DNA of 32,987 nt, taken from assembly GCA_004322015.1 (NCBI GenBank), contig SCQT01000003.1, positions 1-32,987 of the forward strand, given 5' to 3'. Shown here piece by piece: positions 6,532 through 25,396 of this stretch. A program made the position numbers and the translations under genes. Every line of letters starts with the position of its first letter. Position 1 is the stretch's first letter. The stretch comes from Chitinophagaceae bacterium. GTDB lineage: Bacteria > Bacteroidota > Bacteroidia > Chitinophagales > Chitinophagaceae. The notes beneath the pieces are model-generated. The model did not search any database. It was not told the origin of the DNA and saw only the letters and a program-made list of their open reading frames with translations.

Positions 6532-6957
6532 GCTGTAAAAGGATTTTCAAAAAGTTTTTGGGCGAGCATCTGGATTGGATATTTTCGTTTTAGCCATTCC
6601 AATATTGTACGGATGGATGAAGTGCTTCGCCAGATATTTGACTGGAAACGAGTTTCGTCAGGAACCATCTACGGACGATTCTTTAAGAAATTTACTACCT
6701 CCATGAATCATGAAATATTTATTGAGATGTATAACTATTTTTTAAATCAGCTACATTTTGATAATGATACTATAGAGGTAGATGGTAGTACGGTTACTCG
6801 GTACGGTCAAGAGGAAGGGAGCCTAAGGGGGTATGTTCCTGAAATTTCGTACCTATAAACGAAGAAAATGGTATGAATGAAAGCTTATTTTCGAATATCA
6901 CTTCTTCGACACTGGTATTAGGTCTATCGGTATGAGTCTATTGTAAAACCCGGGATT
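6532..6957 (+). pseudogene. IS1380-family transposase remnant with internal deletion
   Basis: The frame of 6532-6858 reads GYFRFSHSNIVRMDEVLRQ and later TIEVDGSTVTRYGQEEGS. This matches the N-terminal part of IS1380-type DDE transposases up to the first catalytic aspartate (DGST). After GSLRGY the expected GYNPKKxGR block is missing and the reading frame changes. From about 6842 another frame gives KFRTYKRRKWYE, and a further frame from about 6890 gives a stretch ending V-stop-VYCKTRDYE. This resembles the WxLYRxRADxEN block near the third catalytic residue, with TGG changed to TGA at 6933. The copy is therefore a decayed transposase missing its middle. It lies between the aldolase and the MFS gene and directly precedes the MFS start codon. 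The N-terminal match is strong; the C-terminal match is weaker. Confidence 0.68.
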
Positions 6958-8382
6958 ATGAATGTTCTTCACGCTGTCCATACACTTAGCGGTCCTTCAG
7001 AGATTTCGAAAGAGAAACCACCTGTTCGGCGTGTATTAGTTTTTAGTATTGTTGCGATGGCGTTGTTGATGACAACAGTGGACTCCACTATTGTTGCAAC
7101 AGCCCTTCATACCCTTCAGATTGAGCTGCATACAACCATCAATTGGATAGGCTGGACTATTACAGCCTATGCTTTTGGATTTGTGCTTATGTTGCCCATC
7201 AGTGGAAAGTTAAGTGAGCGGTATGGACATAGGCAGATTTTCCTGCTTTCAATTATAACTTTTACGCTTGTATCACTCTGTTGCGGGTTATCATCTAATA
7301 TCTACATACTTATAGCCCTGAGAGTCATACAGGCTGTCGGAGGTGCAGGTATTACTCCTTCGGCGACCGGGATTATTGTGGATCATTTTGGGGAAGCACG
7401 CGACAGAGCAGTTAGCTTTTTTGGAAGTGTTTTTCCAATAGGCGGGATGATTGGCCCGATCTTCGGCGGGCTGTTCGTTACATACTGGACTTGGCGAGGT
7501 ATATTTTTTGTCAATGTACCGATTGGTATAGTAGTTATTGCTATGGCCTTACGGTATGTTCCGCATGGTCATCGCCCAAAGGTCCAAACTCATCTCCACA
7601 CAGATATATTAGGGATTGTTTTACTTGGAACCGGTGTACTTGCAGGCATGTTTGCCGCCAGTTATATGGGGGAGCAAAATGCAGATATTTTTTCTCCCAT
7701 GTTTATCGTTTTGTTAATCCTTGCCATAGTATCTATAACAGCTTTCTTTCTGCATATTGCCCATGTCAGGCAGCCACTTATTGCCCCTGTTCTCATTTAT
7801 GGAAAAGGATTCGGGGCAGTCAATCTGATCAATATACTTTTCGTTGGAGTAACGGCAGGTATAATTACCCTTGTTCCCCTTTACGCAACCACAAGGTATG
7901 GTATCAATGCCTTAAATTCAGGGATCCTGCTTGTTGCGTATGGTGTTGCTGCCATTGCATTGTCAGTTGTTGCTGCGATGATGCTGAGAAGAACGGGTTA
8001 CAGGTTGCCCTTATATGCGGGAAGTAGTATCATCATCGTTGGAACAATTCTGCTTGCGGTACCACAGAGGTGGGGTATTTCACCTTTTGCATGGTTAACC
8101 ATTTCTACTTTTCTCATTGGAGTCGGTTCTGGAGCTATTAATCCGTCTTGTCGTAATGCAGGTTTGCAATTAGCACCTCAACGTTCTTCTACAATTGCTG
8201 CTTTGCGTTCATTGTTCCTGCAGGTTGGAACTATTGTTACCATAGCTATAGCTACTGCCATCATTTCAGAATCTGCTAATTCAGGTCATGCACAAGCCTG
8301 GATAAATTTATCAGCGGCTGTTATTTTCGTTTTTTCCATACCGCTTATATCCAGAGTTCCCGAACATCATGGATCATGGTAG
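6958..8382 (+). CDS. MFS transporter, DHA2 (EmrB/QacA-like) type
   Basis: Integral inner-membrane protein of 474 residues with about 14 hydrophobic segments, the DHA2 arrangement of proton-driven drug:H+ antiporters. TM1 reads VLVFSIVAMALLMTTVDSTI and carries the D-S-T-I pattern common in the family. The loop after TM2 has the MFS motif A form GKLSERYGHRQ, and the fifth segment has an antiporter motif C-like GGMIGPIFGGLF. Drug efflux is the usual annotation. Here it lies between two sugar-breakdown modules, so import or export of a sugar or aglycone is also possible. Its start abuts the decayed transposase, so it may have lost its original promoter region or been brought here by the element. 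Confidence 0.88.
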   Translation: MNVLHAVHTLSGPSEISKEKPPVRRVLVFSIVAMALLMTTVDSTIVATALHTLQIELHTTINWIGWTITAYAFGFVLMLPISGKLSERYGHRQIFLLSIITFTLVSLCCGLSSNIYILIALRVIQAVGGAGITPSATGIIVDHFGEARDRAVSFFGSVFPIGGMIGPIFGGLFVTYWTWRGIFFVNVPIGIVVIAMALRYVPHGHRPKVQTHLHTDILGIVLLGTGVLAGMFAASYMGEQNADIFSPMFIVLLILAIVSITAFFLHIAHVRQPLIAPVLIYGKGFGAVNLINILFVGVTAGIITLVPLYATTRYGINALNSGILLVAYGVAAIALSVVAAMMLRRTGYRLPLYAGSSIIIVGTILLAVPQRWGISPFAWLTISTFLIGVGSGAINPSCRNAGLQLAPQRSSTIAALRSLFLQVGTIVTIAIATAIISESANSGHAQAWINLSAAVIFVFSIPLISRVPEHHGSW

Positions 8383-24898: not shown

Positions 24899-25396
24899 AT
24901 GGCGGTTGATGAAAAATTAACCGGACGCGTTAGAGATGCATTGTCCCATTTGCCGAATGTGGAAGAAAAGAAAATGTTCAGAGGCATTACCTTTTTGGTG
25001 AATAGTAAAATGTGTGTCAGCGTCAGTGATGACCACATAATGGTTCGCTTTGATCCTGCTATGCATGAAAAGATATTAAAGGCAAATGACTGTCAGGATG
25101 TTGAACCCAGATTTTGCTACAGCAAAATCTCTGCGGAGCAGCGACGAAAAATTAGCTTTTTAGCTAATTTTTGTCGGGGTCAACCTCGACATTCTGGCAA
25201 AAAGCCGGAATCGTCGGCCCGAAGGGCAAATTTTGCAGCTAACTGCAAAATTTGGGTTGAAATGGGTAAACGAAAATATAAAGGGTATGTGTATGTAAAT
25301 GAAAATGCCATTCCGTTTAAAAAAGATCTCGATTATTGGATCAGACTTGCCCTGAGCTTTAATGAAAAGATCCGTTTTAAAAATACCGAAAAATAG
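24899..25396 (+). CDS. TfoX N-terminal-domain protein carrying an in-frame palindromic insertion
   Basis: 165-residue open frame. Residues 1-68 read as the start of a TfoX/Sxy N-terminal domain (LSHLPNVEEKKMFRGITFLV, then MCVSVSDDHIMVRF), and residues from about 121 complete it (MGKRKYKGYVYVNENA, DYWIRLALSF). Between them are about 52 residues rich in Arg, Lys and Ser with no relation to the domain. These are encoded by a structured DNA element flanked by the direct repeat GTTGAA. Removing one repeat copy plus the element (156 nt, 52 codons) restores the compact domain of about 113 residues, with CQDVE joined to MGKRK. The family is named after a competence regulator, but stand-alone N-terminal domains have unknown roles. 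The host gene stays open; whether the protein still folds is unknown. Confidence 0.8.
   Translation: MAVDEKLTGRVRDALSHLPNVEEKKMFRGITFLVNSKMCVSVSDDHIMVRFDPAMHEKILKANDCQDVEPRFCYSKISAEQRRKISFLANFCRGQPRHSGKKPESSARRANFAANCKIWVEMGKRKYKGYVYVNENAIPFKKDLDYWIRLALSFNEKIRFKNTEK
25100..25261. mobile_element. Palindromic MITE-like element with 6-bp target duplication, inserted in frame
   Basis: GTTGAA occurs at 25100-25105 and 25256-25261 and brackets 150 bp that begins CCCAGATTTTGC and ends GCAAAATTTGGG, a 12-bp terminal inverted repeat with one mismatch. Inside are consecutive stems: 25109-25130 (10 bp, perfect, loop AC); 25131-25141 (4 bp); 25142-25176 (15 bp with one bulged G, loop TTTT); 25191-25211 (8 bp with one G-T pair); 25217-25227 (4 bp); and 25227-25254 (12 bp, perfect, loop CTAA). 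No transposase fits in it, so it would need to be moved in trans. Insert plus duplication is 156 bp, a multiple of three, with no stop in the host frame. Confidence 0.75.

Follow-up and report, generated by a model that had tools for sequence, protein, structure and literature searches.

The TfoX_N-domain gene of the window (by which we mean the whole analysed stretch of 32,987 nucleotides from a Chitinophagaceae bacterium, contig SCQT01000003.1, genome G000) is interrupted by a densely palindromic segment of DNA, and the locus raises the question of what this segment is, how it came to lie inside a conserved gene without closing the reading frame, and why it is built of hairpins. Our analysis confirms that positions 25106-25256 represent a non-autonomous element of mobile type with IS1380-type ends, i.e. 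a MITE. The features on which the following account draws are these:

6547-6858, plus strand: decayed IS1380-family transposase fragment, located some 18 kb from the MITE on this contig
24899-25396, plus strand: TfoX_N-domain gene carrying the insert, 165 aa (113 aa without the insert)
25101-25105, no strand: left copy of the target duplication, TTGAA, placed by sequence and family boundary
25106-25256, plus strand: MITE of 151 bp, abutting hairpins within a CCC/GGG outer pair
25106-25119, plus strand: left terminal inverted repeat, CCCAGATTTTGC and two further bases; the IS1380 counterpart is CCCGGATTTTGCAG
25109-25130, plus strand: hairpin 1, 9-10 bp, with outer pairs that co-change among copies
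25131-25141, plus strand: hairpin 2, CTGC/GCAG, from RNA fold and covariation
25142-25176, plus strand: hairpin 3, a covarying 11-bp stem on a CGAC/GTCG base; loop A-rich or T-rich depending on the copy
25173-25216, plus strand: central hairpins; in this zone other copies have or lack whole-hairpin cassettes
25227-25254, plus strand: terminal hairpin with a stem of 12 bp
25243-25256, minus strand: right terminal inverted repeat, CCCAAATTTTGCAG
25257-25261, no strand: right copy of the target duplication, TTGAA

The first letters of the element are CCCAGATTTTGC and the last GCAAAATTTGGG, and its terminal repeats (CCCAGATTTTGC and, on the opposite strand, CCCAAATTTTGC) span 12 bp with one mismatch. 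An earlier reading of the locus, made from its letters alone (hereafter the sequence-only reading), had given the same repeats to an element of 150 bp, which proves to be 151 bp long; the duplication GTTGAA that it proposed is present as well, shortened to the 5-bp TTGAA on either side, with the right-hand G being part of the element. The length of the duplication was fixed by comparing copies of the family and not from the window copy by itself. The terminal inverted repeats are conserved across this family, whose 19 complete copies (140-265 bp) lie dispersed at different sites and are too short to contain the transposase gene of an IS1380 insertion sequence.

The element is not a solitary one. 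A DNA search of its own genome (300 contigs) revealed seven full or partial places, among them, besides the window copy, a second complete one at C204, one at C64 that runs off a contig end and partial ones at C299, C6 and C76. The same-genus genome G001 (Chitinophagaceae bacterium isolate FW021_bin.37) holds at least 29 copies: a DNA search yielded 13 matches there, and an exact pattern scan of the contig collection found 28 contigs, 27 from FW021_bin.37 and one from another Chitinophagaceae MAG (L133), the lower bound being made up of these 27 contigs and two further copies (L038 and L075). The question whether the segment was a single copy with no relatives is thus answered by a multi-copy family spread through a Chitinophagaceae genus. 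Viral contigs gave no exact pattern match, and plasmids gave no match to the element. A left-arm covariance model (R1) matched 4 of 396 genomes, G000 included, with at most 12 candidates scored per genome, so that absence counts as weak evidence; G001 holds the element but appears neither among the model matches nor among the genomes listed for the 37-bp unit described below, and we take it as lying outside those samples. Plausible members outside the genus were found by the model in G058 and G256, with the hairpin order of the MITE in different letters (by eye); TTAAA stands on both sides of the G058 member (by eye), and the flanks of the G256 member are unequal. A further match, in G234, looks like chance and was rejected.

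Several individual places deserve mention in their own right. At C263 (L016, 1501-1545) a 28-bp miniature consists of both end motifs fused, with TTTAA still on each side. The diverged member in G256 (L137, about 1429-1570) lies directly upstream of a rimM-like and downstream of an rpsP-like ORF, and at L008 (1500-1540) a solo terminal hairpin sits just behind the stop of an rpiA-like gene, the stop itself being made by the edge of the repeat (both by eye). At L004 (1423-1593), a small ORF continues into a partial copy after about 27 codons, its original end being replaced.

The target duplication holds for the family as a whole. Counts of duplications and reading frames used 17 of the 19 complete copies, since one end of L006 and of L118 is a contig edge, and the zero stop counts of these two are artefacts. 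Identical 5-mers flank 13 of the 17 copies, compared with a mean of 3.6 identical pairs when the right 5-mers were shuffled (13 was reached in none of 100,000 shuffles). Five different 5-mers occur as matching pairs (TTGAA, TTTAA, TTTAT, ATAAA and TTAAA), and each of the 34 5-mers has T as its second and A as its fourth letter. The four copies with unequal 5-mers are L107, L121, L126 and L132, of which the last shares its right flank with L117, suggesting recombination.

The MITE has the same ends as IS1380-family insertion sequences of G037 and G143, two genomes from other families of the same order. G037 has five places, and G143 four, at or near contig ends and with transposase pieces, where TTNAA-type 5-mers occur with CCCGGATTTTGCAGT. 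The five contig-end places of G037 show CCCGGATTTTGCAGTAGGAATTAAG beside the AT-rich 5-mer and then, inward, the transposase C-terminus; in G143, CCCGGATTTTGCAGTT is followed by the transposase N-terminus at two places and stands beside the C-terminus at two more, and in both genomes the two ends would belong to one element. Matches to the IS1380 model NF033539 (0.001 for the C-terminal piece of G037 and 1.4e-7 for the N-terminal piece of G143, one piece per genome) lie below the full-length cut-off, as those of fragments must. A full-length relative in G291 (L094) reached 249.5 bits against a cut-off of 180 and ends in CCCGGATTATGCA. Both IS1380 copies of G291 carry unequal 5-mers (TTAAA/TTTAA at L094, TTAAA/TTGAA at L083), and hence a clean 5-bp duplication on an insertion sequence was not seen here; Table 2 of PMC3281130 gives a 5-bp direct repeat for IS1247, a member of the IS1380 family.

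Neither G000 nor G001, both of them fragmented assemblies, yielded an intact IS1380, and the exact ends were not observed on any complete insertion sequence, the pieces in G037 and G143 being broken by contigs. Of an autonomous element with the same terminal repeats, which the sequence-only reading advised looking for, G037 and G143 thus show IS1380 ends, with no intact copy in G000 or G001. A search for PF13701 in G000, G001, G037 and G058 gave nothing over the cut-off, which is weak evidence, as it also missed the IS1380 relic of G000; a weak match in G001, a 390-aa ORF, was discarded, its locus having no MITE ends. The relic itself (6547-6858) shares 40% identity with an IS1380 transposase (E 1.6e-21) and matches NF033539 with E 1.4e-6, below the full-length cut-off, and no matching ends were found near it. 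It shows that IS1380-type elements have been present in the genome. By eye, its neighbours are an aldolase-like ORF on one side and an MFS-like transporter ORF on the other. The interior of the MITE is unlike that of IS1380 (by eye), so the element does not appear to be a simple deletion derivative. An attC-like reading of the ends was dropped by eye, as the ends of the window copy fail to fit both core sites of the attC consensus.

Insert and duplication together (151+5 = 156 bp) add exactly 52 codons to the host gene with no stop, as read at the outset, and 12 of the 52 added residues, counted on the translation, are Arg or Lys; the sequence-only reading had described an Arg/Lys-rich segment. 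The TfoX_N match of the protein (PF04993, E 4.9e-15) covers just positions 1-52 of 91. Each of the 21 aligned homologues of relatives (out of 24 loci; L063, L067 and L071 were not aligned) lacks the 52-residue segment, with a single clean gap and rejoining at the same place; the possibility that TfoX proteins naturally carry it thus finds no example among these 21. The fused TfoX-domain protein is presumably made and tolerated. Comparison with sequences of solved structures gave no match for the protein, and a single-sequence AlphaFold model of all 165 aa (mean pLDDT 41.5) was too poor to place the insert.

In-frame fusion is a real but rare outcome of insertion in this family. With the duplications included, only 6 of 102 frames across the 17 copies are free of stops, and a stop-free frame combined with a length divisible by three occurs only in the window copy and at C204, both in G000; each lies inside an ORF in precisely that open frame, on opposite strands of the element. 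These are the only two complete two-flank copies of their own genome, so that in-frame copies number 2 of 2 there and none of 15 elsewhere. The C204 copy splits the start of an ORF of 590+ aa that has no Pfam or NCBIfam family; the split segment is, by eye, a signal peptide, and translation may therefore also start downstream of the insert. The C204 frame equivalent to that of the window copy is closed twice, by a stop that the TTTAA duplication of C204 supplies and by one in the interior, so that openness is particular to the window copy. When the insertions are removed, a stop-to-stop frame of at least 100 codons runs across the junction at 5 of the 17 empty sites (window, C204, L134, L109 and L110), with the site at L109 and L110 lying within 11 codons of one frame end, and at the remaining 12 no 100-codon frame does. 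The L134 copy (6957-7141) frameshifts a Y1 (IS200-like) transposase gene, a mobile element within a mobile element, and this Y1 gene has flanking palindromes of its own, of GGCTCC type (by eye). At C64 a short frame matching a winged-helix domain reads into the element and ends within it; since no ORF of at least 80 aa includes this frame, its host may be a remnant. The earlier suggestion of a transposon shaped to be tolerated inside genes loses ground with so few open frames and only 2 of 17 copies keeping the frame, but it is only weakened, since these two are the only complete two-flank copies of the window's own genome. Survival in genes probably filters for rare open copies and does not reflect a design of the family.

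As for its structure, the window element folds as RNA into seven hairpins that abut one another within the closing CCC/GGG ends, and it has perfect stems of 10, 11 and 12 bp; the sequence-only reading had counted six stems, three of them of 10-15 bp. Its statement that the element is almost entirely hairpins is upheld. With an RNA folding energy of -71.8 kcal/mol (shuffled sequences average -37.4; z -8.7; none of 200 as good) the element lies far beyond chance, its DNA fold gives z -9.3, and three further copies fold with z -9.6, -8.5 and -9.6.

The stems also covary among copies. The left-arm alignment (A1, n=25, 20 distinct) used 25 of 33 available arms with eight near-identical ones omitted, and 93.8% of its cells pair, the truncated L004 adding unpaired cells; both sides have changed in 6 of 29 pairs (a number reached by 6 of 500 shuffles). 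Covariation scores 0.090, as compared to 0.044 in shuffles (0/500) and no more than 0.045 in slid alignments. No excess was seen for further pair types (9 against 9.7 shuffled; 429/500 as high). For the right arms (n=19, 10 distinct), covariation amounts to 0.063 against 0.014 in shuffles (4/500), with one pair in three states and compensatory change at 1 of 12 pairs; their doubly changed pairs and further pair types were reached by 80/500 and 47/500 shuffles, respectively. In all of these comparisons, related sequences can exceed shuffles. The loop of hairpin 3 is T-rich in 20 of 25 copies and A-rich in 5, as if it had been flipped, which favours template switching that restores the palindrome as at least part of the cause; with this process plausible, the covariation is no proof of a role in RNA.

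How much of this could be accounted for without an IS1380-type transposase? A likeness to the Rickettsia palindromic elements (RPEs) had been noted from the beginning, and an element of that kind, kept open in one frame and spreading in genes as a protein insert, would agree with the size, the palindromes and the in-frame position in TfoX, and also with the stop-free C204 copy, which makes two of two complete copies in the own genome. We nevertheless consider it unlikely: in-frame copies are two of 17 overall and absent from the other genomes, open frames are scarce, the two fusions lie on opposite strands of the element and share no peptide, one copy frameshifts a Y1 gene, and most empty sites have no 100-codon frame to enter. 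Membership in the Rickettsia family is accordingly not supported. An assembly chimera or a natural domain insertion might be thought of in a genome assembled in 300 contigs, but it is hardly credible with both halves of the gene matching the same family, an exact rejoining and a perfect duplication; moreover, the window copy differs from the compared copies, which makes a misjoin via an identical repeat unlikely. Terminal hairpins and the Y1 transposase gene in G001 could be taken to suggest a REP-type palindrome that a Y1 (RAYT) transposase mobilises by way of single-stranded DNA. This is very improbable given the target duplications, which Y1 transposition is, to our knowledge, not known to make; in addition, the Y1 gene of G001 is flanked by palindromes of another type and has received a copy of the element. 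Both the 5-bp duplications and the size of 140-265 bp set the family apart from REP/RAYT repeats, which are 20-40 bp hairpins as listed in PMC3733652.

A different kind of explanation holds that the element is kept for the structure it would form as RNA or as a cruciform, with a role in mRNA stability, termination or protein binding, the genic copy being a by-product. The strong folds of four copies (z -8.5 to -9.6), the compensatory changes in left and right arms with covariation above shuffles, and the similar layout seen by eye in G058 and G256 are in its favour. Against it, further pair types of the left arms do not go beyond shuffles, double changes and further types of the right arms do not stand out from them, no Rfam family was found at gathering score, and template switching, with which the hairpin-3 loop fits, restores pairing in palindromes without selection; we therefore hold this explanation to be possible but doubtful. 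Taken jointly, the dispersed family, the matching 5-mers, the homologues lacking the insert, the IS1380 ends and the IS1380 relic make it highly probable that the element is a MITE which a transposase of IS1380 type mobilised in trans. The ends CCC-RR-ATTTTGC-AG match the terminal repeats of IS1380-family DDE insertion sequences, and a transposase encoded elsewhere, as the shared ends suggest, would insert the element at an AT-rich 5-mer (WTNAW, mostly TTNAA) which becomes duplicated. The window copy landed at a TTGAA of the TfoX_N gene in its one stop-free frame and added 52 codons at one place of the domain. The contiguous hairpins between the ends are acquired and dropped as entire cassettes.

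The length range of the complete copies is due to whole hairpins being present or absent. Among the 19 complete copies, a 37-bp unit occurs in 6, a 42-bp unit in 9 and a CAGACGCTTCGGTCTG hairpin in 10, and the position of the 37-bp unit in C204 differs from that in the G001 copies. Our analysis revealed the same 37-bp unit in a second dispersed repeat of G000, whose complementary frame arms vary from copy to copy (GGTTCTTTTGT / ACAAAAGAAC at C125, CTTTCTTTGG / CCAAAGAAAG at C88). With up to 3 mismatches, the unit was listed for 2 of 396 genomes of the order, G000 and, at two places, G058, a genome of another family; G001, although it holds the unit, is absent from this list. For the 42-bp unit, 2 of 6 genomes gave matches, at 5 places in G000 and 23 in G001; in G000 it lies within the second repeat, where it splits the 37-bp unit, and in G001 its neighbours are those of the MITE in 15 of the 23 places, all that were opened. 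At L120 a left half of the MITE family is joined to a right side that resembles the second repeat family (by eye). The second palindromic repeat, with a loop carrying 37-/42-bp cassettes, was observed at L012, L013, L014, L015, L017, L018, L019, L020 and L021, and the contigs of the own genome with this repeat are C171, C208, C88, C125, C202, C183 and C161. We tentatively suggest that the 37- and 42-bp units may be mobile themselves, entering loops or junctions of larger palindromic repeats, nesting into composites, and crossing repeat families and genera by a process without clear duplication, e.g. template switching between hairpins; no clear duplication was seen around them. The MITE would in that case be a carrier which collects and spreads hairpin cassettes.

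The locus links a hairpin-tiled repeat family of Bacteroidota to IS1380 transposition and supplies, from outside Rickettsia, an example of in-frame fusion of a MITE with a conserved domain. The family is unusual in its all-hairpin build and in exchanging hairpin cassettes with another repeat family, and not in its category as a MITE. The series of copies differing by whole hairpins could show how palindromic repeats grow, and could also tell selection from template-switch mutation behind the covariation of repeats. The open-licence literature on IS1380 and MITEs, as excerpted, describes no such family and offered no link between MITEs and IS1380 in Bacteroidetes, and the papers listed on MITEs and Chitinophagaceae look unrelated by title.

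Compared with known systems, the family is like the IS1380-family insertion sequences (NF033539) in its terminal repeats CCCGGATTTTGCAGT and AT-rich flanking 5-mers, and unlike them in having no transposase gene and an interior of hairpins. EFAR elements of Enterococci, which have a modular build, resemble it as a MITE-like complex palindromic repeat and differ in ends and host, and we know of no sharing of cassettes between them and a second repeat family. In the relevant part of PMC3733652, EFAR elements are named as MITEs and NEMIS, ERIC, RUP and Nezha are listed as bacterial MITEs; such MITEs in general are there given 70-300 bp, terminal inverted repeats, a non-coding nature and strong structures, as in the present family, from which they are distinguished by its IS1380-type ends, its whole-hairpin cassettes and the pairing of almost every base. 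The Rickettsia palindromic elements share with it a length of about 150 bp, palindromes and an in-frame position within an ORF (PMC10969869); the MITE family has no conserved frame or peptide, and 15 of its 17 complete copies are not in-frame inserts. As to the earlier remark that no such family was known in Bacteroidota, searches of open-licence papers listed no in-frame palindromic elements there, but a composite MITE of the phylum has been published, namely BrickBuilt of Porphyromonas gingivalis (PMC4596501; mentioned also in PMC5771137), which resembles the present family as a composite MITE in Bacteroidota and differs from it in containing a minisatellite in place of hairpin cassettes.
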